From contig JARJMX020000213.1 in the NCBI GenBank assembly GCA_029335925.2, forward strand, positions 1 to 11,654: 11,654 bases of DNA. The letters run 5' to 3'. This DNA comes from Gammaproteobacteria bacterium (lineage in GTDB: Bacteria; Pseudomonadota; Gammaproteobacteria; Halothiobacillales; Halothiobacillaceae). The notes under the pieces are model-generated. The model searched no databases, was not told where the DNA came from, and saw only the letters and a list, made by a program, of their open reading frames with translations. The first letter of the stretch is position 1. Each line of letters opens with the position of its first letter. Shown here one piece after another: positions 1 through 11,654 of this stretch. Both the position numbers and the translations under genes were made by a program.

Positions 1-501
1 AGCTCAGGCAAGGTGCTGATCCATGGCAGCGATATCAGTCGCTTGGCAGGCTGGCGCATCCCTTACCTGCGCCGCCGCATCGGTCTGATCTTTCAGGATC
101 CGCACCTGCTGGTCGACTTGAGCGTCTTCGACACCGTCGCCCTGCCCCTGCGTGTGCAGCACTATCCACGCGCGGAGATCGCCCGCCGAGTGCGCGCCGC
201 GCTGGATAAGGTCGGCCTACTGGACCGCGAGAAGGCTCGCCCGCAGGAACTCTCCGGTGGAGAGCAACAGCGCGTCAATATCGCCCGTGCCCTGGTCGCA
301 AAACCCTCCATCATCCTGGCGGATGAGCCAACGGGTAACCTCGACCCCGAGCTCGCGTTCGAAATCATGCGTCTGTTCACCCAGTTCAATGCCGCTGGTG
401 TGACCATGCTGATCGCCACCCATGCCTTGGAGTTGATCAAACACTTCGATGCCCCGCGCCTGATGCTGCGCGGAGGACGCCTGCGCATGGAGGAGGCATG
501 A
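1..501 (+). CDS. ftsE: Cell division ATP-binding protein FtsE (5' end cut off by the window)
   Basis: ATPase half of the FtsEX complex, an ABC-type machine at the inner face of the cytoplasmic membrane that drives periplasmic murein hydrolase activation at the septum. The frame is open from base 1, giving 166 residues; the family is about 220 residues, so roughly 55 N-terminal residues including Walker A lie outside the window. Visible parts, numbered from the window start: Q-loop IFQD around residue 32, ABC signature LSGGEQQR at 84-91, Walker B ILADEPTGNLD at 105-115 and the H-loop His at 141. The H-loop reads ATHALEL, with Ala where the usual next residue is Asp (E. coli FtsE has ATHDINL). 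The stop TGA (499-501) overlaps the ftsX start as ATGA, so the two are translationally coupled. The identification rests on overall match to FtsE and on ftsX following. The GTG at 13 is only an internal codon, not the start. Confidence 0.96.
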   Translation, partial: SSGKVLIHGSDISRLAGWRIPYLRRRIGLIFQDPHLLVDLSVFDTVALPLRVQHYPRAEIARRVRAALDKVGLLDREKARPQELSGGEQQRVNIARALVAKPSIILADEPTGNLDPELAFEIMRLFTQFNAAGVTMLIATHALELIKHFDAPRLMLRGGRLRMEEA

Positions 502-1436
502 GCCACCACCACGCCCAGCGCGGACACACCGTGTCAGCCCGCTTCCATGCCTGGTTGGCCCATCACGGTGAGAGCCTGCACGACGCCCTCCGCCGCCTCA
601 AACGCCGCCCCTTCGGCTATCTCCTCAGCATGCTGGTCATTGCCGTCAGCCTAACCATTCCGATTACCCTCCTTGCCACCCTGCACGGTGCCCGCACCGC
701 CCTTGCGGGCTGGACAAAAGAAGCTGCCCAGCTGCAACTATTCCTCAAGCCGACGGTCAGCCACCGTGAAGCCGAAGCCTTGCTGCGCACCCTGCGCGAG
801 GATCCGCTGATCGCAGAGCCACGCCTGATCACCCCGGAGGAAGGGTTGGCCCAACTGGCCCGCGCCCATGCGCTCGACGGCGTGCTAAGCGAACTAAAGG
901 ACAATCCCCTGCCGACCGTGATCGAACTTAAGCCGCGCTCAGCCGCAGACCTGGAGGTCCTGCGCACACGCCTGGCCGTCCGCCCCGAGGTTGACACAGT
1001 ACGGATGGATTCGGAGGCGGTCCAGCGCCTGCGTGGGCTGATCAATGCCGGTGAGCGGCTGACCTTGATCTTCCTCATCATCCTCGCCCCCGCGCTGGCA
1101 ATCACCGTCGGCAACACCATCCGCCTGGAACTTGAGCGGCACGCCGAGGAAGTGCGCCTGCTGCAGCTGATCGGCGCCACTCATGCCTTTATCCGTCGCC
1201 CACTGCTCTACGCCGGGGCCATCCTCGGCCTTGGCGGGACGCTGCTTGGTTTGCTGTTCGCTGGCCTGGCCATGCGCCTGCTGCTTCAAGCCGCCGCAGA
1301 CAGCGGCTGGCTGATCACCTTGCCAAGCCTGCCCCCCTATCTTGTGCTGACCCTCATCCCTATCGGCACCCTGCTCGGGATATTGGCCGCCTGGCTGGCC
1401 AGCGCGCTGCAGATCCGCCGCATCCATCCGGCCTGA
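498..1436 (+). CDS. ftsX: Cell division permease-like protein FtsX
   Basis: Membrane partner of FtsE; in E. coli it recruits the amidase activator EnvC through its large periplasmic loop. The 312-residue product is somewhat shorter than E. coli FtsX (about 350), mainly because of a shorter cytoplasmic N-terminus, here His/Arg-rich. Predicted topology by eye: TM1 41-63, periplasmic loop 64-186 containing the conserved NPLP motif at 136-139, TM2 187-208, TM3 235-258 and TM4 281-303, with a basic cytoplasmic tail. The cytoplasmic stretch EEVRLLQLIGAT (217-228) after TM2 is typical of FtsX (FtsX/MacB fold). The start ATG overlaps the ftsE stop by ATGA and is preceded by GGAGGAGG (489-496), which sits close to the ATG but is a strong Shine-Dalgarno sequence. 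No clear terminator follows; the rpoH regulatory gap begins directly after it. Confidence 0.96.
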   Translation: MSHHHAQRGHTVSARFHAWLAHHGESLHDALRRLKRRPFGYLLSMLVIAVSLTIPITLLATLHGARTALAGWTKEAAQLQLFLKPTVSHREAEALLRTLREDPLIAEPRLITPEEGLAQLARAHALDGVLSELKDNPLPTVIELKPRSAADLEVLRTRLAVRPEVDTVRMDSEAVQRLRGLINAGERLTLIFLIILAPALAITVGNTIRLELERHAEEVRLLQLIGATHAFIRRPLLYAGAILGLGGTLLGLLFAGLAMRLLLQAAADSGWLITLPSLPPYLVLTLIPIGTLLGILAAWLASALQIRRIHPA

Positions 1437-1468
1437 AGCGTGTTGCGCCTTGGGAACTTTTTTGTGGA

Positions 1469-1495
1469 TTAGCACTCGAATCAAAAGAGTGCTAA
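1469..1495. promoter_or_regulatory. CIRCE operator (HrcA binding site) upstream of rpoH
   Basis: Seen directly: TTAGCACTC (1469-1477), a 9-base spacer (1478-1486) and GAGTGCTAA (1487-1495). This is an exact match to the CIRCE consensus, with perfect complementary arms and the canonical spacer length. CIRCE is the operator of the heat-shock repressor HrcA, normally found before groESL or hrcA-grpE-dnaK-dnaJ. Here it lies 33-59 bases upstream of the rpoH ATG, in the gap between ftsX and rpoH, so rpoH is the only sensible target. The inference is that HrcA represses rpoH in unstressed cells; hrcA itself is not in the window. Confidence 0.93.
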
Positions 1496-1498
1496 ATT
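1469..1498 (+). promoter_or_regulatory. Candidate sigma-70 promoter of rpoH, overlapping CIRCE
   Basis: A possible extended -10 element TGC-TAAATT has its hexamer at 1493-1498 and TG at 1490-1491. It lies 18 bases after a moderate -35 match TTAGCA (1469-1474, 4 of 6). Both hexamers overlap the CIRCE arms, so bound HrcA would block RNA polymerase. Transcription would start near 1505. A second -10-like GATAAT (1505-1510) has no good -35 partner. Placement is by eye and moderate at best. Confidence 0.4.
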
Positions 1499-1527
1499 CG
1501 CTCAGATAATCCCAAGGGGTTCGATCA

Positions 1528-2379
1528 ATGCAAGAACTTGCCAACCTTTCCGCCCTGCCGACTTCGCGTGATGCCTTCGCGGCCTATCTCGCCGAAGTTC
1601 GTCGGATCCCACTGCTCACTGCCGAGGACGAATACCGTTTGGCGGTCCGCTGGCGCGACGACAAAGATCTGGATGCCGCACGGCAGCTGGTGCTGGGACA
1701 TCTGCGTTTCGTGGTGCACATCGCGCGCAGCTACACAGGCTATGGCCTGCCGCTGAGTGAACTGGTACAGGAAGGCATCATCGGCCTGATGAAGGCGGTG
1801 CGTCGCTACGAGCCGGATCGTAAGGTTCGTCTGATCACCTTCGCCGTGCATTGGATCCGGGCGGAGATTCACGAGTTCATCCTGCGGAACTGGCGCATGG
1901 TACGGGTGGCCACCACCAAGGCCCAGCGCAAGCTGTTTTTCCGTCTGCGCGGTATGCGTGACGGCGAGCGCTGGATCAACCAAGACGAGGCCCAAGCCAT
2001 CGCCGGGGAGCTGAACGTCCCGGTCAAAGAGGTGTTCGAGATGGAGTCCCGCCTGCTGGGGCACGACGTCGCCATCGAGCCGGAGCAGGACGAGGAGGCG
2101 CACCTGGCCCCGCTTGCCTGGCTTGAAGCCCCCAACAGCGATCCGGCCGAGGCGCTGGAGCAGCTGGACAGCCAAAGTTTACGCTTAAAACAGCTCGAGT
2201 CGGCCCTAGAACGCCTCGATGCTCGTAGCCAAGACATCATCCGCCGCCGCTGGCTCGTGGAGGGCGAGAAGGCGACTTTGCATGAACTGGCGGATAAGTA
2301 TCAAGTCTCTGCCGAGCGCATCCGCCAGATCGAGCAAGCTGCCATGCGCAAGATGCGCCAAGCCATCGGCGTACAATAA
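1528..2379 (+). CDS. rpoH: RNA polymerase sigma-32 factor RpoH (heat-shock sigma factor)
   Basis: Directs core RNA polymerase to heat-shock promoters. The 283-residue length equals the family norm (E. coli 284). Sigma region 2 is clear: HLRFVVHIAR at 58-67, then GYGLPLSELVQEG, and FAVHWIRAEIHEF around 105-117, which contributes to -10 recognition. The RpoH-box QRKLFFRLR (133-141), diagnostic for sigma-32 rather than RpoD or RpoS, is intact. Region 4 lies at about 225-280 with SQDIIRRRW and the helix-turn-helix LHELADKYQVSAERIRQIE. The ATG is preceded by AAGGGG (1514-1519) at 8 bases, and the N-terminus aligns with the family without extension. rpoH follows ftsX as in many gammaproteobacteria, but here a CIRCE operator sits before it, so control by HrcA is likely. 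The perfect hairpin at 2421-2446 ends the transcript. Confidence 0.98.
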   Translation: MQELANLSALPTSRDAFAAYLAEVRRIPLLTAEDEYRLAVRWRDDKDLDAARQLVLGHLRFVVHIARSYTGYGLPLSELVQEGIIGLMKAVRRYEPDRKVRLITFAVHWIRAEIHEFILRNWRMVRVATTKAQRKLFFRLRGMRDGERWINQDEAQAIAGELNVPVKEVFEMESRLLGHDVAIEPEQDEEAHLAPLAWLEAPNSDPAEALEQLDSQSLRLKQLESALERLDARSQDIIRRRWLVEGEKATLHELADKYQVSAERIRQIEQAAMRKMRQAIGVQ

Positions 2380-2492: not shown

Positions 2493-2591
2493 TCAGCTAA
2501 AGATCACACTCAGGAAAATCAGCCAGGAGAAGATGATCAGGCCGACGATAAAGGTAAAGGCGGCGTTCTGGAAGCTGAACAGCTTGGCCAT
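2493..2591 (-). CDS. 32-aa single-span membrane peptide at the end of the ccoGHIS operon
   Basis: Not in a family I recognise. The frame encodes 32 residues beginning MAKLFSFQNAAFTF and ending at TGA (2495-2493). One hydrophobic segment covers residues 11-32 (AFTFIVGLIIFSWLIFLSV), so nearly the whole peptide is one membrane helix with a tiny N-terminus carrying a single Lys. The ATG (2591-2589) is 17 bases after the ccoS stop. A good Shine-Dalgarno AGGAG (plus coordinates 2604-2600) lies in that gap at 8-base spacing, so the reading frame, ribosome site and operon position agree. Very small single-helix subunits of cbb3 oxidase are known (CcoQ; CcoM in Pseudomonas stutzeri). By position it may be a subunit, assembly or stability factor of this oxidase, but that is inference and I see no clear resemblance to CcoM. 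A second ATG five bases upstream opens a different, non-hydrophobic frame and is less likely. Confidence 0.72.
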   Translation of the reverse strand: MAKLFSFQNAAFTFIVGLIIFSWLIFLSVIFS

Positions 2592-2608: not shown

Positions 2609-2827
2609 TTAGTGTTTGAGTTGTGTATCTGCCGGTGGCGCCTGCCGCGGCTTCGCGGAAGGCTCCTGCGGCCTTGGAATACGCGGGTCGTCGTCGTCCA
2701 TAAGGATGCGATGCGCCGGCCCCTCGAGATCATCATACTGGCCGCTGCGCACGGTCCACAGCACGGCCCAGATCAGGCCCCCCATCACCACGATGCTGAG
2801 AGGGATCAGGAAGTAAAGAATATCCAC
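2609..2827 (-). CDS. ccoS: cbb3-type oxidase assembly protein CcoS
   Basis: Small membrane protein required to make active cbb3 oxidase; loss in Rhodobacter leaves the oxidase without heme b, b3 and CuB cofactors. The product is 72 residues, normal for the family. One membrane helix covers about residues 3-25 (ILYFLIPLSIVVMGGLIWAV). The family signature SGQYDDLEGPAHRIL follows at 28-42, then an acidic DDDD and a Pro-rich charged tail. I chose the GTG at 2827 because the conserved N-terminus is MDILYFLIP. The frame stays open upstream to an ATG at 2890, but that would add 21 non-conserved residues and overlap the end of ccoI. The start is 40 bases after the ccoI stop. The ribosome site is modest (GGGTAGG just upstream). 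Fourth gene of the assembly group. Confidence 0.92.
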   Translation of the reverse strand: MDILYFLIPLSIVVMGGLIWAVLWTVRSGQYDDLEGPAHRILMDDDDPRIPRPQEPSAKPRQAPPADTQLKH

Positions 2828-2867
2828 AGACCTACCCGGTTTATTGGCGCAAGCTACCCGTTCTATT

Positions 2868-5291
2868 TCAACGGCGCAAGCGCAAGGCATTCAATACCAC
2901 GATAAGTGAACTTAATGACATGCCGATCGCCGCGAGCCAAGGCGGAACAAAACCGGCGGCGGCCGCAGGCACGGCAATGAGATTGTAACCCAGCGCCCAA
3001 GCAAGGTTCTGGCGGATGATGGCCATGGTCCGGCGCGCGACACGTATCCCGGCCGGGATATGGCTCAGATTTTCGGACAACAGAATCATATCCGCCGAGG
3101 CTTGGGCCAGTTGGGTGCCTCCTCCCATGGCCAGCGAAGTCTGGGCTCCGGCGAGAACCGGCGCATCGTTCACGCCATCGCCCACCATCACCACCACCTC
3201 GCCCTGCGCCTGGAGCTGACGCAAATGGTTCAGCTTGTCTTGGGGCAACAGGCCCCCTCGAGCATGGGGAATCCCGAGCTCGCGCGCCACCCGTTCGGCT
3301 TCCTGCGAGCGGTCCCCGCTTAGCAGGCTGACCGCAAGCCCCAATTCGCGCAATTCACGGATTGCGCCGATAGCTTCCTCGCGCGGGGCATCGCGCAGTA
3401 TGAACCAGGCCAGGGCTCGATCCGTATCAGCCAACAGGATCACCGTCCCAGCCGATTCCGGGATCATCGGCACCGGCTGACCGGAGAGGGCCATGGCGAA
3501 ATCCGCCACACCGATACGCAAGCGGCGACCCTCCACACATCCCTCTATGCCCTGCCCCGGTATGGCGCGCACCTCATCCGCAGCTACCTCCTGCCCTGCC
3601 TTGCTTACGATGGCGCGCGCCACGGGGTGTTCGGAGGCCTGTTCAAGGGCCGCCGCCCAGAGGAGGGCCTCGGCCTCGCTCACCGCCCCTAAGGGAATCA
3701 CGCGCTCGAGCGAGAGTCGGCCATCGGTTAGGGTACCGGTCTTGTCGAACACCACATGCGTGGCACGGGCCAGAGTCTCGAGGGCGTGGCCACGGGTCAC
3801 CAGCAGACCAAGACGGGTCAACCTGCCGGTGGCCGCGGTCAGGGCGGCAGGAGTGGCAAGGCCGAGGGCACAGGGACAGGTGACCGCGAGCAAGGATACG
3901 GTGATCCAGAACGCTCGGGATGGCTCGTGCAGCCACCACCAGAGCGCCACCAGCACGCTAACCACGAGTAGTCCAAGGATGAACCACTGCGCTGCACGGT
4001 CGGCCAGCTGGCCAATGCGCGGCTTCTCGGCCTGGGCGCGGTCCAGAAGACGGAGGATGGAGGAGAGCACCGTCTCTTCTCCCACCTTGTCCACTCGCAC
4101 CAGCAACGGGCTCTCGATGTTCACCGCACCGCCGATCACCGCATCCCCGGGGCCGCGCCCGCGCGGCACGCTCTCCCCAGTCAAGAGCGACTCGTCCACG
4201 CTACTGTGCCCTTCCAACACCACGCCGTCGGCCGGAATGCTCTCGCCGGGGCGGACCCGCACGCGGTCCCCCGGGCGCAGCTCGGCCACCGCCACCATCC
4301 GCTCGACTCCGTCCGTATCGATCCGCGCGGCGATGTTCGGCAACAGCTTCACCAGTGCCTCGGCCGCCTCGCCGGCCTTGTGCCGAGCGAGCATTTCCAG
4401 ATAGCGTCCGACCAGCAACAGGAAGGCGAACATGGTGACGGTGTCGAAGTACACCTCGCCGCTGTGGGTCATCGTGGCCCAGGCGCTGGCAAGGAAGGTC
4501 AGGGCGAGGGTCAGGCTCACCGGCAGATCCATGCCCAATCGCTTCTGTTTGAGATCACGCCAGGCCGAAGTGAAGAAGCCAAGCGAGCTATAAAAGATCA
4601 CCGGCAGGGTGATGACAAGGCTTGCCCAGCGCAAGAACTCCCGCAGCCCTTCCTCCATGCCATGGAAATCGCCCGAATACAGGGCAATGGCGATCATCAT
4701 CACCTGCATCATCCCCAAGCCCGCCACTCCAAGCCGTCGCAAGGCCTGGGCGCGCTCGCGCTTGAAGGCCGCCTCCTGACGTCCGGCATCGAAGGGATGG
4801 GCCTGGTAGCCGATCGAGGCGATTGCCCGCAGGATCTCGCTCAGCTGGATTTGCCGTGCGTCCCACTGCACCCTGGCCCGCTTGGTAGCGTAGTTGATGT
4901 TGAAGGAGAGGACCCCGGGCAGGGCGCGCACATGCTTTTCGTTCAGCCAGACGCAAGCGGCACAGGTGATGCCTTCGAGAATCAAGGCCGCCTCGCGGAT
5001 ATCCCCCTCACCGCTGACGAAACTGCGCTGCAGGGCCTCGCTGTCATACAACCGCAAGCCCTCGAGCTTTTGCGGCACCAACTCATGCCCACGACCGGCC
5101 GGCTGGGTGCGGTAGCTGTAGTAATCCTCCATGCCGCCATCGACGATCGCCTGGGCCACGGCTTGGCACCCTGGGCAGCACATGCGACGCTCCTCCCCTT
5201 GGATGCGCACGGTGTAGTGCGCCCCGGGCGGAATCGGCAGGCCGCAATGGAAGCACTCGCCATCCCCGGGCAGAAGACGCAGATCAGACAT
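2868..5291 (-). CDS. ccoI: Copper-transporting P1B-type ATPase CcoI for cbb3 oxidase biogenesis
   Basis: Moves copper out of the cytoplasm using ATP; in the CcoI/FixI (CtpA-like) branch the copper serves CuB insertion into cbb3 oxidase rather than detoxification. The 807-residue protein starts with a Cys-rich metal-binding domain (CFHC 13-16, CCPGC 38-42; PF12156-like). A heavy-metal-associated domain follows with GITCAAC (107-113). Eight membrane helices are expected (about 184-205, 222-242, 256-274, 280-300, 433-452, 461-483, 760-779, 783-803). The actuator motif is TGES (371-374), the metal-site motif CPC (472-474), the phosphorylation motif DKTGT (516-520), the nucleotide-binding SEHP (553-556), and the hinge GDGVNDAP (704-711). 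The last helix carries MSLSS. All key residues are present. ATG at 5291 has an upstream AAGGGGGG, 19 bases after ccoH. The N-terminal double-cysteine domain and the ccoGHIS context separate it from CopA. Confidence 0.96.
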   Translation of the reverse strand: MSDLRLLPGDGECFHCGLPIPPGAHYTVRIQGEERRMCCPGCQAVAQAIVDGGMEDYYSYRTQPAGRGHELVPQKLEGLRLYDSEALQRSFVSGEGDIREAALILEGITCAACVWLNEKHVRALPGVLSFNINYATKRARVQWDARQIQLSEILRAIASIGYQAHPFDAGRQEAAFKRERAQALRRLGVAGLGMMQVMMIAIALYSGDFHGMEEGLREFLRWASLVITLPVIFYSSLGFFTSAWRDLKQKRLGMDLPVSLTLALTFLASAWATMTHSGEVYFDTVTMFAFLLLVGRYLEMLARHKAGEAAEALVKLLPNIAARIDTDGVERMVAVAELRPGDRVRVRPGESIPADGVVLEGHSSVDESLLTGESVPRGRGPGDAVIGGAVNIESPLLVRVDKVGEETVLSSILRLLDRAQAEKPRIGQLADRAAQWFILGLLVVSVLVALWWWLHEPSRAFWITVSLLAVTCPCALGLATPAALTAATGRLTRLGLLVTRGHALETLARATHVVFDKTGTLTDGRLSLERVIPLGAVSEAEALLWAAALEQASEHPVARAIVSKAGQEVAADEVRAIPGQGIEGCVEGRRLRIGVADFAMALSGQPVPMIPESAGTVILLADTDRALAWFILRDAPREEAIGAIRELRELGLAVSLLSGDRSQEAERVARELGIPHARGGLLPQDKLNHLRQLQAQGEVVVMVGDGVNDAPVLAGAQTSLAMGGGTQLAQASADMILLSENLSHIPAGIRVARRTMAIIRQNLAWALGYNLIAVPAAAAGFVPPWLAAIGMSLSSLIVVLNALRLRR

Positions 5292-5310
5292 GGCTCAAAA
5301 GCCCCCCCTT

Positions 5311-6120
5311 TTAGGGAGCTGCGACATCCGTCGCAGCCCGCACCTCATGGATGTCCTCGCCACGCTGGACGAGGATCACCACCTGCCAGAGACCGGCGAG
5401 GTGCGGAGTGATCGCGGCACGGTAGAGGCCAGGCTCAACCTCTCGCAAGGTCACATGGAAGTCTTCACGCTGGTTAGAGGGACGCAAAAAGCGCGCACTG
5501 ACCTCGGCGCCGCTGACGGGTGAACCATGGCGATCGCGCGCCAGCACCTGGAACAACGCCTCCCGGCCCTTAATCGGTTCCTCGAGCCAGCCATATTCCA
5601 CCTGCCAGCCGCGCTCTTTCTGCAGCTCAACCCGGCGTAGGTAGTCGTTGTAAAGCGCTTCCTTCTTCTGGTAGTCGTGCGAGATGACGCCTGGAAAGTA
5701 CGAGCTGATCGCCTCCCCCTGCTTGGGCTTGGGCAGCAGCCAGGCACTGACGCGACTGTCCAGCCCGCCCATAGCCACCGTGACAAACACGGCATCCATG
5801 GCGATGATCACCGCGAAAAAGCCGATGATCAGCCCCGGTCCCCAGCGGAGGGAACTGCGATCTTTATCCCGCTGTTGCTGCTCGCGTTCATGCGCCCACA
5901 CGCCAAGGATAAAGACCACCATCAGATAGAGCGCAAGATGAATGGCTAGCACATCGGCACCGGGCCAGTTCAGCAGGGCGAACGGCAAGTAGAAGCCCAG
6001 GGTAAGGATGGCGAGGATGACTGCCGACTGCCGTCCTCCGAGGCGAACCAGACGGTTCAACCCCAAGAAGGCGAGTACGATTAGCAGGATGCCTACAGCG
6101 AGTGAAATCAGGATGGACAC
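5311..6120 (-). CDS. ccoH: FixH/CcoH family cbb3 assembly protein with a three-helix N-terminal extension
   Basis: CcoH (FixH) is a membrane protein that acts with CcoI and CcoG in cbb3 assembly and stays in contact with the oxidase. The usual form is about 150-180 residues with one N-terminal helix. This one has 269 residues. The conventional part begins near residue 93: a helix at 95-117, then a periplasmic domain with the FixH-like stretch around SHDYQKKEALYNDYLRR (147-163) and a beta-rich C-terminus. Before it lie three more hydrophobic segments (3-22, 32-51, 56-75) and a charged linker (76-90). The start is GTG at 6120, 8 bases after the ccoG stop, with the first helix beginning at once; no ATG fits nearby and the Shine-Dalgarno is weak, suggesting translational coupling to ccoG. 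An internal GTG at codon 74 could give a near-standard protein but has no ribosome site. Confidence 0.85.
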   Translation of the reverse strand: MSILISLAVGILLIVLAFLGLNRLVRLGGRQSAVILAILTLGFYLPFALLNWPGADVLAIHLALYLMVVFILGVWAHEREQQQRDKDRSSLRWGPGLIIGFFAVIIAMDAVFVTVAMGGLDSRVSAWLLPKPKQGEAISSYFPGVISHDYQKKEALYNDYLRRVELQKERGWQVEYGWLEEPIKGREALFQVLARDRHGSPVSGAEVSARFLRPSNQREDFHVTLREVEPGLYRAAITPHLAGLWQVVILVQRGEDIHEVRAATDVAAP

Positions 6121-6128
6121 GACTCGGA

Positions 6129-7541
6129 TCAGCGCGGCATGTTGAAGGTGGCATTCATCGCCACAGGTTTGATCTGACCATCCTTGTCGGTCAGCACGAA
6201 GCGGAAGTTCTGCTGTGAATTTTTGGCCCCAGCGGGCAATTTCACCCTCACCAAGAGATGAAGGAGCTTATCGGAGGGCACTTCGATGTCCTTCTTGCCC
6301 CCGGCAATCTCGATCTCCGCATCAGCCAATCCCTCAACTCCAAGATCAAGACGGAGTGGGCGGGGAACCTTGTTGTTGATCTTGATCTCGTAGCTGTTTT
6401 GCACGCGGCCATCGGCCAAAGTCACGGCAAGAGGATTGCGCACCTGATTCACGGAGAAGTCCATCGGTGCTTGATGCAGAATACTATAGATGAGAAAGAC
6501 AGTGACAACCAGAATCGCCAAACCGTAACCGATCGTCTTCGGCTTAAAAACCCGTGGCTTACTTCCAGTTTCAATTTCCTGCTCGGAGGCATAGCGAATT
6601 AGACCGCGTTCCCAGCCCTGTTTGTCCATAATCTCATTGCAGGCGTCAATACAAAGACCGCAGTTGATGCAGGCAATCTGCAGACCATTGCGGATGTCGA
6701 TGCCAGTCGGGCAAACCTGTACGCAAAGGCCACAATCAATACAGTCACCATAACCGGCCGCTTGACGCTCCTCCCGAGTCTTTAGACCACGACCGAGATG
6801 TGCACGCCCCTTTTCGCCCTCGCCACGCTTGTAGTCATAGGAAGGGATGAGGGTCTCCTTGTCGAACATCACCGCCTGGAAGCGGGAATAGGGGCACATG
6901 TAAATGCACACCTGCTCGCGCACGAAACCGGCGACGACGAATGTCGTCAAGGTCAGAAAACCGATGGTGAAATAGGCTGGATAGGGCGCGCGGCCGGTGA
7001 AGAAATCATTGAGCAAGCCATAGGCATCGGTCCAATAGGCAGTGAAGGTGAATCCGGTGATCCAGGCGAAGAGCAGCCACGCAGCCCAAGTTAGCCCCTT
7101 TTTGCTGATTTTCTCGGGATTCCAGGGCATCTTGTCGATATTGATTCGTTTCTGCCGGTCTCCCTGAATCCAGCGTTCGATGAACATGAACGCATCAGTC
7201 CACAGGGTTTGAAAGCAGAAATAACCGCAGAAAGCGCGGCCGACCACCCCAGTGACGAAGAACAACAGCCAGGCGAAGATGATCAGCGCGCCAGCCAACC
7301 AGTAGATGTCCTGGGGATGAACAATGAGTTCGAAGATATAGAAACGGCGGCCAGGGATATCGAAAAGCACCGCCTGCGAGGGCCCATCACCACGATCCCA
7401 GCGCAACCAGGGTAGGAGAAAAAAAACGGCATAGGCCAGCACCAACACCCCCGTCTTGAACGTGCGGAACGTACCTTTTACCGATTTTGGATGAATAGCG
7501 ATGCGTTTCTGATAGAGCTTCTCTTCTGTCTCGACGGACAT
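6129..7541 (-). CDS. ccoG: Cytochrome c oxidase accessory protein CcoG (FixG), polyferredoxin-like membrane protein
   Basis: Membrane Fe-S protein of cbb3 biogenesis, reported in Rhodobacter to reduce Cu(II) to Cu(I) for delivery to the oxidase. The 470-residue length is normal. Membrane helices are near 30-48, 80-100, 152-170, 190-207 and 337-354. Conserved cysteine pairs CGYFC (105-109) and CIYMC (212-216) sit at membrane edges. A double 4Fe-4S ferredoxin domain spans about 264-305 (CIDCGLCVQVCP from 267 and CINCGLCIDAC from 291). The C-terminal 355-470 region is the Ig-like FixG domain (PF11614-like). ATG at 7541 has AGGAG 8 bases upstream. It is the first gene of the assembly group, separated from ccoP by a terminator and 123 bases. 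By sampling single lines, its G+C (about 50%) is visibly lower than in ccoI. Confidence 0.96.
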   Translation of the reverse strand: MSVETEEKLYQKRIAIHPKSVKGTFRTFKTGVLVLAYAVFFLLPWLRWDRGDGPSQAVLFDIPGRRFYIFELIVHPQDIYWLAGALIIFAWLLFFVTGVVGRAFCGYFCFQTLWTDAFMFIERWIQGDRQKRINIDKMPWNPEKISKKGLTWAAWLLFAWITGFTFTAYWTDAYGLLNDFFTGRAPYPAYFTIGFLTLTTFVVAGFVREQVCIYMCPYSRFQAVMFDKETLIPSYDYKRGEGEKGRAHLGRGLKTREERQAAGYGDCIDCGLCVQVCPTGIDIRNGLQIACINCGLCIDACNEIMDKQGWERGLIRYASEQEIETGSKPRVFKPKTIGYGLAILVVTVFLIYSILHQAPMDFSVNQVRNPLAVTLADGRVQNSYEIKINNKVPRPLRLDLGVEGLADAEIEIAGGKKDIEVPSDKLLHLLVRVKLPAGAKNSQQNFRFVLTDKDGQIKPVAMNATFNMPR

Positions 7542-7563
7542 ACCTCGAGCTCCTCTGAATTTA

Positions 7564-7592
7564 ATTACCGAATGCTAATAATCCTATGACAG
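7564..7592 (-). promoter_or_regulatory. Weak candidate promoter for the ccoGHIS operon
   Basis: The 70 bases between the ccoNOQP terminator and ccoG are AT-rich and should hold a promoter. The best pair I find on the minus strand is CTGTCA (7592-7587, 4 of 6 to -35) and GGTAAT (7569-7564, 4 of 6 to -10), 17 bases apart. Several other AT-rich hexamers are possible. No TTGAT-N4-ATCAA box is present. Confidence 0.22.
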
Positions 7593-7611
7593 CTGGGGGC
7601 TTGGCCTGCTC

Positions 7612-7635
7612 AAAAAAATGCCGGCAAAGCCGGCA
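7612..7635 (-). terminator. Intrinsic terminator after ccoNOQP
   Basis: Read on the minus strand: TGCCGGC, loop TTT, GCCGGCA, then seven T residues. The 7-base stem is perfect (plus strand 7619-7625 and 7629-7635) and the T run corresponds to A at 7612-7618. It begins about 30 bases after the ccoP stop. It separates the structural operon from the assembly operon, so ccoG needs its own promoter or readthrough. Confidence 0.9.
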
Positions 7636-7664
7636 GTTATAGGTGCGAAGCGCATGGAAAGCGC

Positions 7665-8570
7665 TTACTTACCGCCGCCCAGTTCATGCACATACACGGT
7701 CAGCATCTTGATCTCCTCCGGCTTGAGGCGGTTGCCGAAGGCCGGCATCTCGCGGGCAATGCCCTTGTTGATCACGCCCGCGACTAGCTTCTTCTTCTCC
7801 TCGATGGAGCCTGCTGCCGGGATGTTGATCACAGACCAAGCCTTGTCGGTCAGGTTAGCCGCCCCCAACATCGGATTGCCCTTACCCTCGGCACCATGGC
7901 AGCCCATGCACATGGCATAGCCCTGCTTGCCGCGCTCGGCGGCCGCAGCATCCACAGCCTCACCGGACAGGCTCAGCACATAGCTGGCGAGGTCATCAAG
8001 GGCTTGGCCCTGAATATTGGGAAAGGCAGGCATATTACCTTTGCGGCCAGCCTGAAGACTGACCTGAATCTGCTCAACCTGACCACCCCACAGCCAGTCG
8101 TCATCCGCCAGGTTGGGGAAGAATGGCAGGTTGCCCTGACCGCCCTGGCCATGGCAGGCAGCACAGTAGTCGCCAAAGTAGCCTTTGGCCATGGAGCGCG
8201 CGAAGGCCATCATATCGGGATTAGCAAAGATCTCTTCATAGGAGGCGGCGGCGACCTTCTCGATGTACTCACGCTGCTTCACCGCTGCCGGGCTGCTCTG
8301 CATCTCGGCAATCAGCTGACTGCGGGAGTTCCACGGCATCTCCTTGGTCTGACCGTTCTCTTCCACCGTGACGGTTGCGATACCGCGGGTGAAGCTCTTA
8401 CCAACAGGCCACGCCGGGTAGATAACCCAGTAAATGATCGAAAAAACGATAGTGGCGTAGAAGGCCCACAGCCACCAGTTGGGCAACGGATTGTTGTACT
8501 CACGCAGGTCACCATCCCAGACGTGACCGGTGGTTTCGACCTGCTTGGATTTGTTAGTGGGATTGGTCAT
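7665..8570 (-). CDS. ccoP: cbb3-type cytochrome c oxidase subunit CcoP (diheme cytochrome c)
   Basis: Membrane-anchored diheme cytochrome c that takes electrons from soluble or bc1-linked cytochrome c and passes them to CcoO. The 301-residue protein has a short cytoplasmic N-terminus with the FixP_N-like HVWDGDLREYNNPLP (16-30), one membrane helix at about 32-52 and two periplasmic cytochrome c domains. Heme 1 is CAACH (136-140) with a likely Met ligand in GNMPAF (M180); heme 2 is CMGCH (221-225) with EMPAFG (M275). It lacks the extra N-terminal helix seen in the Pseudomonas and Vibrio forms. ATG at 8570 follows the ccoQ stop by 2 bases and has AAGGGG upstream. Last gene of ccoNOQP, followed by an intrinsic terminator. 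Confidence 0.98.
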   Translation of the reverse strand: MTNPTNKSKQVETTGHVWDGDLREYNNPLPNWWLWAFYATIVFSIIYWVIYPAWPVGKSFTRGIATVTVEENGQTKEMPWNSRSQLIAEMQSSPAAVKQREYIEKVAAASYEEIFANPDMMAFARSMAKGYFGDYCAACHGQGGQGNLPFFPNLADDDWLWGGQVEQIQVSLQAGRKGNMPAFPNIQGQALDDLASYVLSLSGEAVDAAAAERGKQGYAMCMGCHGAEGKGNPMLGAANLTDKAWSVINIPAAGSIEEKKKLVAGVINKGIAREMPAFGNRLKPEEIKMLTVYVHELGGGK

Positions 8571-8572
8571 GA

Positions 8573-8773
8573 CTATTGATCCCCTTGTTTCGACGCAGGC
8601 TTCTTTTCCTCGTCGTCGATAAACGGAATGTTCTTGTAAGACTCAAGCCGTTCCTTGCGCTGCTTGCCGGTATAGACGTAGAGCACGATGCCGACAAAGG
8701 TGGTGAAGAAGATGAGCAGGGCCAGCACCTTGCTGTTGCCGAGATCACCCAACCAAGCCCATATTTCAGACAT
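8573..8773 (-). CDS. ccoQ: cbb3-type oxidase small subunit CcoQ
   Basis: Small non-catalytic subunit that stabilises the complex and the CcoP association. It has 66 residues, one membrane helix at about 15-34 (KVLALLIFFTTFVGIVLYVY), then a basic stretch KQRKER and an acidic tail with NIPFIDDEE, the usual end of CcoQ. ATG at 8773 has AGGAG at 6 bases. It sits 26 bases after ccoO and 2 bases before ccoP, the standard position. Confidence 0.95.
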   Translation of the reverse strand: MSEIWAWLGDLGNSKVLALLIFFTTFVGIVLYVYTGKQRKERLESYKNIPFIDDEEKKPASKQGDQ

Positions 8774-8799
8774 GTCGTGCTCCTGACGATGCGACCGTA

Positions 8800-9534
8800 T
8801 CAGCGGAAGCTGGCGAAGTAGCCCTGTTCGTACTGCTTGAAGTCCACCAGGGTGCCTAGCATCTGCAGGTAGGCGACCATGGCGTCCATCTCGGTGATGC
8901 GCGACTTGTCGCCGTCCCAGTTACGGCTGGTGGCCTCCGCCTCGAGGGTAGCCTTGGCGTTCGGGATGTGCAGCTTGTCCGCCATCTCCTTGCCATACTC
9001 AGCCACATTCGCCTGGTACTCCTCCTCAGTGAGGGAGTACGGCACGCCGGTCATCTTGAGCGCCTTCATGCGCTTCTCGATGTCGTCGTACTTGAGCTCA
9101 TTCTGGGCAAGCCAAGGATAGGCTGGCATGATGGATTCGGGCACGACGTTCTGCGGACGGATCAGGTGCTGGGTATGCCACTCGTCGGAGTACTTGCCGC
9201 CGAGACGGGCGATGTCCGGACCCGTACGCTTGGAGCCCCACTGGAAGGGGTGGTCGTACTTCGACTCCGCGGCTAAGGAGTAGTGACCGTAGCGCAGCAT
9301 CTCGTCACGGAACGGACGGACCATCTGCGAGTGACAGGCATAGCAGCCTTCGCGGATGTACAGATCCCGGCCACGCAGCTCCAATGGGGTGTACGGACGT
9401 ACACCCTTGACCTCTTCGACCGTGTTCTTGATGTGGAATAGCGGGACGATCTCGACCAAGCCCCCGATGCTGATCACGACGAGGGTGAGGATGATCAAGA
9501 GACCGGCATTGATTTCGATGCTTTCGTGCTTCAT
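8800..9534 (-). CDS. ccoO: cbb3-type cytochrome c oxidase subunit CcoO (monoheme cytochrome c)
   Basis: Membrane-anchored cytochrome c that passes electrons from CcoP to the heme b of CcoN. It has 244 residues with one N-terminal helix at about 10-32 ([15 protein letters not shown]) and a periplasmic domain. The heme site is CYACH (64-68) in the conserved context [18 protein letters not shown], and the distal Met is M136 in SIMPAYPWL. The C-terminal insert between the Met ligand and the last helix is charged, as usual in this family. ATG at 9534 has GAGGGG at 8 bases, 17 bases after the ccoN stop. Confidence 0.98.
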
Positions 9535-9551
9535 CGATTCAACCCCTCACA

Positions 9552-11003
9552 TCAACGTGCCAAGGCCACTGCACCGGTCGCTTCGACGGCAACGCCACGC
9601 TTGGCCTGGACAATGGTCATGTAGGTGTTGTACACCATCAGCAGAACGCCAGCGACGAAGAACATGCCGCCAAGGGCACGCACAACGTACGGCAGATGCA
9701 TGAAGGTCACGGTCTCGATGAAGGTGTAGGCAAGGTTGCCGTACTCATCGAAGGCACGCAGCATCAGACCCTGACCGATACCCGCCACCCACATCGAGGC
9801 GATGTAGAGCACGATGCCGATGGTCGCCAGCCAGAAGTGGGTATAGATCAGCTTGCTGCTGTACATCTCTTTTGCCCCCCACAGACGCGGGATGAGATGG
9901 TAGAACGACCCGAAGGTGATCATGGCCACCCAACCGAGTGCACCGGAGTGGACATGACCCACGGTCCAGTCGGTGTAGTGAGACAGGGCATTGACGCTCT
10001 TGAGCGACATCAGCGGGCCTTCGAAGGTGGACATACCGTAGAAGGACAGCGCGGTGATCATGAACAACATGATCGGGTCGGTGCGCAGCTTATCCCATGC
10101 ACCGGATAGGGTCATGATCCCGTTGATCATGCCACCCCAAGACGGCAGCAGCAGCAGGATGGAGAAGGTCGCTGCAAGCGTAGAGGTCCAGTCTGGAATC
10201 GCAGTCCAGTGCAGGTGGTGGGTACCCGCCCACATGTACAGGAAAGACAACGCCCAGAAGTGAACGATGGACAGGCGGTAAGAGTACACCGGACGGCCAG
10301 CTTGCTTCGGCACGAAGTAGTACATCATGCCAAGAAAGGCTGCCGTCAGGAAAAACCCTACCGCATTATGTCCATACCACCACTGGGTCATGGCATCCTG
10401 CACGCCCGAGAACAGGCTATAGGACTCGAGGCTGGTCAGACTGACCGGCACAGCAAGATTGTTGAAGATGTGCAGCAGGGCTACAGCCAAAATAAAGGCA
10501 ACGTAGAACCAGTTCGCCACATAGATATGCGGCTGGCTACGGTTGCGCAGGGTCATCACATAGACCAGGGCATAGCTCACCCAGACCACAGCGATCGCAA
10601 GATCCAGCGGCCAGACGAATTCGGCGTACTCGCGCCCCTGGGTATAGCCCAACATGTAGAGCACAACGCCAGCGCCGATGCCGATCTGCCACCCCCAGAA
10701 GGTGAACTCGGCCAGCGGGCCGCCCCACAGACGGGTCTGGCAGGTGCGCTGTACCACATAGTAAGACGTGGCAAACAAGGCGCTGCCACCAAAACCGAAA
10801 ATGACCAATGTGGTATGCACTGGACGCAGGCGCCCAAAGGTGATTTCGGGGATATCGAAGTTCAGAAACGGCCACGCCAGCTCACTGGCGATGTACGTCC
10901 CCGCAGTCATGCCCAGGACACCCCAGACGAGCGCCATGATGGCAAACTTTTTCACGATGTCGTAGTTGTACTGCTCTGTGGCAACAGCCGTGCTCGTTGA
11001 CAT
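9552..11003 (-). CDS. ccoN: cbb3-type cytochrome c oxidase catalytic subunit CcoN
   Basis: Heme-copper oxidase subunit I, class C; reduces oxygen to water and pumps protons. The 483-residue protein has about twelve membrane helices. Visible ligands: H63 (RPVHTT) and H352 for low-spin heme b, H350 ([11 protein letters not shown]) for heme b3, and H212 (WYGHNAV) with H262 and H263 (GTHHLHW) for CuB. Y256 is placed for the His-Tyr cross-link typical of cbb3, and E328 (TFEGP) is conserved near the active site. I chose ATG at 11003 because GGGAGGAG lies 7 bases upstream and the protein then starts [15 protein letters not shown], as the family does. An ATG 84 bases further upstream is in frame but adds 28 basic residues without a ribosome site. 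First gene of ccoNOQP. Confidence 0.98.
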
Positions 11004-11085
11004 CTCGAGTCTCCTCCCAAGGTTAATTCTTATTGCTCGGGTTCCCAAAAGGCGGACCTTCCCCACACCCTTTGCTAGTGGGTGC

Positions 11086-11114
11086 ATGTTACTGCAACCT
11101 CAAGTCCCTCTAAA
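11086..11114 (-). promoter_or_regulatory. Candidate promoter of ccoNOQP
   Basis: On the minus strand TTTAGA (11114-11109, 4 of 6 to the -35 consensus) and TAACAT (11091-11086, 4 of 6 to -10) are 17 bases apart. Transcription would start near 11079, giving a leader of about 75 bases before ccoN. It is the best-spaced pair I found in the gap, but the match is only moderate. Confidence 0.3.
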
Positions 11115-11223: not shown

Positions 11224-11654
11224 TCAGCGCCTGAGCGAATCCAGAGGGATACGCACCTCCCCGTAGGCATCCGCCACATAGCGCCCAGCCTCCCCACCCC
11301 AGGCCTGACCATGGATGACCTCGTAGGTCACCGGCAACATCCCGTTCACATTGCGATGCGCCTCGTACGCGGCCCGCATAACCTCCAGCCGTCCTTTGCC
11401 GGTCAAGCCTCGCGCTCGCCCGAGGGTGACGTTGTGTGCACCAATGCTCTTAAGACTACGCATGATGGATTGCACATCAGGGTAGTCGAGCCGAAGGCGC
11501 TCGACGTCCATCACCGGGTCGCGTAACCCCGCGCGCACAAGCGCATCGCCTAGGTCATGCATGTCATAAAAAAGATTGACATGGGTGTGCTCAGGATCGG
11601 CCACCCGCCAGGCGTCGCGCAGTTCGTGCAGGGTATCGGGTCCAAGGGTTGCGA
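11224..11654 (-). CDS. bioC: Malonyl-[ACP] O-methyltransferase BioC, C-terminal part (5' end outside the window)
   Basis: BioC methylates the free carboxyl of malonyl-ACP with S-adenosylmethionine so that fatty acid synthesis can build pimeloyl-ACP for biotin. The window holds the last 142 residues; the frame is open to the window edge, and the SAM-binding motifs near the N-terminus are not visible. The visible part begins TLGPDTLHELRDAW, continues with HVNLFYDMHDLGDALVRAG and SLKSIGAHNVTLGRARGLTG, and has PVTYEVIHGQAWG near the end, which is the BioC C-terminal pattern. The GTG at 11604 is an internal codon, not the start. It is transcribed toward ccoN, 220 bases away, with a possible weak terminator between. 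Identification is by C-terminal pattern only; a related SAM methyltransferase is a less likely alternative. Confidence 0.85.
   Translation of the reverse strand, partial: ATLGPDTLHELRDAWRVADPEHTHVNLFYDMHDLGDALVRAGLRDPVMDVERLRLDYPDVQSIMRSLKSIGAHNVTLGRARGLTGKGRLEVMRAAYEAHRNVNGMLPVTYEVIHGQAWGGEAGRYVADAYGEVRIPLDSLRR

Follow-up and report, generated by a model that had tools for sequence, protein, structure and literature searches.

The region directly upstream of rpoH in this genome is very likely a composite promoter-operator, in which a predicted sigma-E promoter is fused with a CIRCE operator and the putative -10 element starts inside the left arm of that operator. The region lies in a window of 11,654 nucleotides, the whole stretch of DNA that was analysed, which is one contig of a 1.64-Mb assembly that is 92% complete.

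The operator, TTAGCACTC-GAATCAAAA-GAGTGCTAA, occupies positions 1469-1495 (no strand assigned), with its arms at 1469-1477 and 1487-1495 and a 9-base spacer at 1478-1486, and as a predicted HrcA operator it shows 0 mismatches to the consensus over the 18 arm positions. No second match with up to three mismatches occurs in the window, and among 200 dinucleotide-shuffled versions of it none yielded a CIRCE even at that tolerance. The perfect CIRCE with a 9-base spacer that the preliminary description had reported before rpoH is thus real, and only its end had been set at 1498, three bases past the operator. Across 148 CIRCE sites before rpoH, the inner arm positions are nearly invariant. The operator ends 32 bases before the start of rpoH, the gene for sigma-32 (1528..2379, plus strand; TIGR02392, 373.1 bits against a cut-off of 323.1, E 8.8e-112), which has by its sequence a ribosome-binding site, AAGGGG, at 1514..1519 (plus strand), 8 bases 5' of the start codon. 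The upstream neighbour at 498..1436 (plus strand) is an ftsX-like gene whose best family is FtsX_Gneg, TIGR00439 (218.5 bits, under the cut-off of 255; E 1.1e-64).

The remainder of the window, on the minus strand, holds a cbb3 oxidase cluster at 2609-11087 with COX1, FixO, FixP, CcoG, a heavy-metal P-type ATPase and FixS, as well as a 269-residue frame at 5311-6120. Directly after ccoS in this cluster lies a 32-residue hydrophobic frame (MAKLFSFQ..., 2493-2591, minus strand), which might be a small, CcoM-like subunit of the oxidase; the 35-residue translation containing it has no Pfam match. A 126-residue frame near the window end (11224-11604, minus strand) likewise has no Pfam match and may be the end of a BioC-type methyltransferase.

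Overlapping the left arm of the operator, the sequence GGAACTT-N16-TCGAA at 1453-1480 has the form of a sigma-E (RpoE, ECF02) type promoter motif of the kind found at E. coli rpoHP3. Its putative -35 element, GGAACTT, spans 1453..1459 on the plus strand, and the position of GAAC is conserved before CIRCE; GAACTT with N16 spacing also precedes E. coli rpoH. The putative -10 element, TCGAA (1476..1480, plus strand), follows GAACTT after 16 bases, its TC being the end of the left arm and its GAA belonging to the spacer, and from this geometry transcription would be expected to start at 1486..1488 (plus strand), 6 to 8 bases past the -10. For E. coli, the available sections of PMC8103513 give GGAACTT as the target -35 of RpoE and state that RpoE starts transcription at rpoH P3. 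RpoE is also encoded in the host genome (TIGR02939, 291.4 bits against a cut-off of 236.15, E 2.8e-87), where rpoE is itself preceded by GGAACC-N16-TCTAT, as judged by eye.

The preliminary description had seen promoter hexamers overlapping the operator arms and had, in effect, read the site as a plain CIRCE on a sigma-70 rpoH promoter, a reading under which GGAACTT would be unused. Such hexamers can be picked out by eye (TTAGCA-N18-TAAATT, 8/12 matching positions), but a sigma-70 scan of 1200-1800 found no promoter-like site, and GGAACTT-N16-TCGAA, the site that matters more, had gone unnoticed. We regard this sigma-70-only reading as unlikely, and one result in its favour comes from the host genome as a whole, where the sigma-E pattern is not enriched: GGAACTTN{14,16}TCNNA matches once in 1.64 Mb, at rpoH, where about 9 matches are expected by chance and the backwards control gives 10. 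This is scarcity and not enrichment, so the case for the element rests on its position. As a separate observation, the genome may otherwise avoid this pattern (1 found against about 9 expected).

The position of the element was compared over 148 rpoH-CIRCE sites, namely 34 from the relatives and 114 from a scan of genome contigs (116 among the matches listed, less 2 duplicates), which were chosen with GAAC disregarded, and over a control set of 42 CIRCE sites of relatives, 22 before groES and 20 before hrcA (L261, with its gene unrecognised, was omitted). A GAAC starts 13-16 bases 5' of CIRCE at 102 of the 148 rpoH sites (26/34 in relatives and 76/114 among the matches listed), at an offset of 15 in 73 sites, 16 in 16, 14 in 9 and 13 in 4, and at none of the 42 groES and hrcA sites (Fisher 8.9e-18), so that in these sets the fused form is confined to rpoH. 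In two five-base control windows farther upstream, 28-32 and 38-42 bases from CIRCE, GAAC occurs at 4 and 4 of the 148 sites. Spacer base 3, the last letter of TCNNA, is an A in 88/102 sites with GAAC, in 23/46 without it and in 12/42 of the other CIRCE sites. Within the 73 offset-15 sites, letters that played no part in the selection are conserved (G at -16 with 0.93 bits, T at -11 with 1.05 bits, and the A at spacer base 3 with 1.46 bits, in 66/73), and no column among the 14 above the -35 (-30 to -17) exceeds 0.17 bits. That GGAACTT is fixed in position and sequence across families while the flank above it varies argues against the unlikely view that it goes unused beside a sigma-70 promoter, as does its presence in the host family, where all 17 members with CIRCE on rpoH have GAAC at the expected place. 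These rpoH-CIRCE sites share descent, and only a count at the family level, given below, lessens the effect of kinship.

In the remaining 46 of the 148 rpoH sites, among them four from Pseudoalteromonas and the Desulfuromonadia-type loci L091, L113 and L136, GAAC is absent from its place, a result that fits a plain sigma-70 promoter under CIRCE and indicates that sigma-E is not required for CIRCE on rpoH. The four Pseudoalteromonas loci are L073, L117, L121 and L179, and all but L073 have a AAAGTTTTAAATTG stretch before CIRCE. A DnaA-box-like TGTGGATTA at 1463-1471 of the window was considered and dropped, since in the 73 aligned sites none of the nine positions preceding CIRCE exceeds 0.35 bits; E. 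coli rpoH has a DnaA-box-like TGTGGATAA at a similar place.

The fixed distance between GGAACTT and CIRCE could also be expected if GGAACTT were an extension of the operator, contacted by HrcA or another repressor, and not a promoter. We consider this highly improbable, given that the groES and hrcA operators lack GAAC at that place throughout, that the element also stands before E. coli rpoH, where RpoE starts transcription at P3 (PMC8103513, available sections), and that it occurs apart from CIRCE in relatives of the host that have no hrcA.

These relatives belong to a comparison of 57 genomes, the host's own and others from its genus, family and class. RpoH scored over the cut-off in 54 of them, and G012, G044 and G054, with none, were left out. 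A CIRCE with at most three mismatches lies no more than 300 bases upstream of the RpoH match in 34 of the 54 genomes and is absent in 20. The host family is represented by 27 genomes, 17 from genera g1, g2 and g4 and 10 from genus g3. In the former, hrcA is matched in 17/17 (as a fragment below the cut-off in G004 and as a partial gene in G019), and CIRCE stands directly before rpoH in 17/17, with 0-2 mismatches. In genus g3, hrcA is matched in 0/10 genomes, and CIRCE is found at rpoH in 0/9 readable upstream regions, where the best matches have 7-9 mismatches. Seven of these nine regions nevertheless carry GAAC[TC]N-N16-TCNNA without CIRCE; spacings of 15-17 were allowed in this search, all seven matches have N16, and the base-shuffle expectation for N16 is 1.1% per genome. 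The sigma-E geometry therefore appears to be a promoter element independent of HrcA that seems to outlive it, and these seven regions speak against both the sigma-70-only reading and the extended-operator reading.

One hrcA-less genome, G006 (L206), keeps the sigma-E geometry, including the TC of the left arm, next to a right arm with one change (GAATGC) and a spacer of 7, and we think that this site is a decayed composite, a relic. Relics in relatives, such as this one with its broken right arm and no hrcA, could suggest that the CIRCE of the window is itself a relic or a product of chance and has no role, a reading to which we assign next to no probability, as here 18 of 18 positions match, hrcA is intact and the site is kept in all 17 family members that match hrcA. 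Outside the host family, G042 has a 1-mismatch CIRCE on rpoH yet no hrcA match; G191, of the same genus, has hrcA, so an assembly gap in G042 is possible. The RpoE match is also missing from G042 (locus L228).

The preliminary description had placed rpoH under the apparent control of HrcA, and the search for hrcA in the host genome found it (TIGR00331, E 1.3e-96, with both HrcA domains recognised by Pfam). Searched with a tolerance of three mismatches, the genome yields three CIRCE sites: besides the perfect one at rpoH (window positions 1469-1495), one lies before groES (C175:11419, 1 mismatch) and one before hrcA (C139:13061, 29 bases 5' of the hrcA match, 3 mismatches). The latter contig has the gene order hrcA, grpE, dnaK, dnaJ, based on GrpE, Hsp70 and DnaJ matches. 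Ahead of its CIRCE, groES has CTTGACC-N12-CCCTTAT, which by eye resembles sigma-32 promoters, suggesting that sigma-32 and release from HrcA may act jointly at groES. Given hrcA, the regulon sites and the contrast within the family (17/17 against 0/9), HrcA control of rpoH in the host genome is the best reading of these sequences; this part of the earlier proposal stands, and the form of its circuit needs the correction given below.

A search for the composite pattern GAACN{12,15}GCACTCN9GAGTGC in an even sample of the class, 369 genomes in all, matched 153 of them, and the backwards control matches in at least three (G049, G052 and G325). In the same sample hrcA is matched in 270/369 genomes and RpoE, at 1e-40, in 285/369. 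The composite and hrcA occur together in 145 genomes, the composite only in 8, hrcA only in 125 and neither in 91; for the composite and RpoE the corresponding numbers are 147, 6, 138 and 78. At the family level (the host plus G027-G183, one genome per family, n=158), the composite is found in 63/158 families, with RpoE in 63/63 of these and hrcA in 59/63, and in 0/38 of the families without RpoE. When only hrcA-bearing families are considered, the composite occurs in 59/102 with RpoE and in 0/14 without (p 1.9e-5). That GGAACTT keeps company with RpoE in all 63 families speaks against its being unused beside a sigma-70 promoter.

The exceptions in the class sample are of two kinds. An hrcA match is missing from eight of the 153 genomes with the composite, of which 7 are under 90% complete and G154 is 98% complete, and six of the 153 have no RpoE match at 1e-40, of which 3 are under 90% complete and G321, G324 and G323 reach 99%, 93% and 91%. 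As G154, G321, G324 and G323 are all more than 90% complete, incompleteness cannot account for every exception. Among the 30 first-listed composite loci, a non-random set that was fetched, 28 encode RpoH; the other two are L281, which adjoins hrcA, and L295, without RpoH. The sole composite match of G358 also adjoins hrcA, and these matches beside hrcA make 153 an upper bound for rpoH composites. In G111 and G234 the composite pattern matches a CIRCE-like site on both strands, which could be a divergent promoter pair.

Besides the sigma-E element, the outer ends of the operator arms may form a weaker, sigma-70-like promoter, TTAGCA-N18-TAAATT. Its possible -35, TTAGCA (1469..1474, plus strand), lies at the outer end of the left arm and agrees by eye with the consensus at 4/6 positions, and its possible -10, TAAATT (1493..1498, plus strand), lies at the end of the right arm, 18 bases after TTAGCA. 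The stricter form TAANAT is found at the right arm end in 102/148 rpoH sites and in 0/42 groES and hrcA sites, which favours the sigma-70-only reading that we hold unlikely, and it is independent of GAAC (69/102 with GAAC, 33/46 without). With TTAGCA or TTGGCA 18 bases 5' of it, TAANAT looks like a vegetative promoter made from the two ends of the operator. The looser TANNNT, of which the TAAATT of the window is an instance, occurs in 139/148 rpoH sites, 14/20 hrcA sites and 0/22 groES sites, and with its presence in the hrcA sites it does not set rpoH apart. Only TAANAT therefore supports an rpoH-specific sigma-70 element, and the window is without it.

An inverted repeat in this place might also work at the RNA level, with the rpoH leader folding into a hairpin or a thermometer, since transcription from an upstream start would give the repeat a 9-pair stem. 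In E. coli, the thermometer element of rpoH extends over more of the gene. We find such a role scarcely credible here and rejected it, with no excess structure and little compensation between the arms. The leader from 1487 (1487-1600, one stretch only) folds no better than its shuffles (z -0.59), the site accompanies hrcA, and the arms are conserved as letters with little pair compensation over the 148 sites: seven of the nine arm pairs keep one letter pair in at least 146/148, the outermost pair shows C-G for T-A in 4 sites against T-G, C-A or T-C in 22, and the third shows G-C for A-T in 1 site against G-T in 28 and A-C in 1.

Our results lead us to propose how the composite of sigma-E promoter and CIRCE could act, HrcA binding, polymerase occlusion, promoter use and GroEL titration being steps that we infer. 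In other bacteria, the activity of HrcA is set by the load on GroEL. Free GroEL would keep HrcA active and rpoH off, and HrcA on CIRCE would cover the sigma-E -10 and transcription start as well as both sigma-70-like elements. Unfolded protein would occupy GroEL and HrcA would be released from CIRCE, upon which sigma-70 would transcribe rpoH at a basal rate and, under envelope stress, sigma-E would drive it strongly. Sigma-32 would then raise the chaperones, and GroEL would re-activate HrcA. At rpoH the logic would then be sigma-E AND NOT HrcA, possibly with a basal vegetative level that this operator also controls. The preliminary description had proposed a simple series circuit from HrcA through rpoH to the chaperones; an operator fused with a sigma-E type promoter would make envelope stress a third input, so the circuit would not be a simple series, and with CIRCE also on groES and hrcA it would be a feed-forward loop with feedback.

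CIRCE on rpoH is in itself known and widespread, and what draws interest is its fusion with a predicted sigma-E promoter. A scan of genome contigs for a CIRCE core with a codon pattern of the RpoH box downstream of it gave at least 118 stretches, and RpoH was found in at least 116 loci with CIRCE (116/118 among the matches listed; L126 and L154, in neither of which RpoH was found, were left out), indicating that the arrangement is widespread. Among the matches listed, the records are mostly labelled gamma- or betaproteobacteria or plain Proteobacteria, and the other labels are Desulfuromonadia-type (L091, L113 and L136), Alphaproteobacteria (L151) and Chitinophaga pinensis (L099). A 2003 study by Permina and Gelfand reportedly covers the sigma-32 and HrcA regulons of beta-, gamma- and epsilon-proteobacteria and, we guess, may list rpoH as an HrcA target. 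For Geobacter sulfurreducens, a CIRCE at -51 before rpoH is already in print as a computed prediction (Table 8 in the available part of PMC545781). The suggestion that CIRCE near rpoH may be rare thus does not hold. Our literature search found no paper describing a composite of sigma-E promoter and CIRCE, which is weak evidence of absence for a search with mostly subscription papers outside its coverage, and sigma-E, CIRCE and rpoH are not joined in the available parts of PMC545781, PMC8103513, PMC3224663, PMC11764788 and PMC3490749.

In the usual picture, HrcA and CIRCE stand apart from the sigma-E-fed sigma-32 system of E. coli; here both seem to be joined within about 45 bases. One short piece of DNA could thus join three stress systems, and the composite is found in 63 of the 158 families sampled. 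We lean, with modest confidence, toward the view that in beta- and gammaproteobacteria with HrcA and RpoE the arrangement GGAACTT-N9-TTAGCAC-TCNNA...GAGTGCTAA is the commonest control of rpoH and works as an AND-type gate, and that E. coli rpoHP3 is its remnant after the loss of HrcA, comparable to what the hrcA-less relatives show. Through such a gate, envelope stress would raise sigma-32 only with cytoplasmic GroEL already occupied and HrcA off. If it works in this way, the load on cytoplasmic chaperones gates the signal that envelope stress sends to sigma-32. The reading also yields a clear prediction that can be tested in species whose rpoH is known to be under sigma-E.

The CIRCE sites of groESL and hrcA share the operator sequence and the repressor with the site at rpoH. 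They differ from it in having neither GAAC at its place nor TAANAT (0/42 for each), and a TTGA, of the sort expected for sigma-70 or sigma-32 promoters, lies no more than 40 bases upstream in 22/22 groES and 12/20 hrcA sites. Geobacter sulfurreducens resembles the host in its perfect CIRCE near rpoH beside groESL and hrcA-grpE-dnaK-dnaJ sites (PMC545781, available part), but that part of the paper names no sigma-E element, and the Desulfuromonadia-type loci lack GAAC in 3/3 cases among the matches listed. In Bordetella bronchiseptica, the available part of PMC3490749 describes in vitro transcription of fam, the rpoH homologue, by an RpoE-like factor, SigE, which provides another proteobacterium with an RpoE-like factor on rpoH and the same promoter class, whereas HrcA and CIRCE are unmentioned in the main text so far as it is available. 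E. coli K-12 has GAACTT-N16-TCTGA at rpoHP3, upstream of rpoH and after ftsX, but the 260 bases upstream of the gene contain no CIRCE (the closest match has 8 mismatches), and according to the available part of PMC545781 E. coli has no HrcA/CIRCE regulon. If the gate exists as proposed, E. coli may be the derived state, in which the sigma-E promoter of rpoH is kept without the gate.
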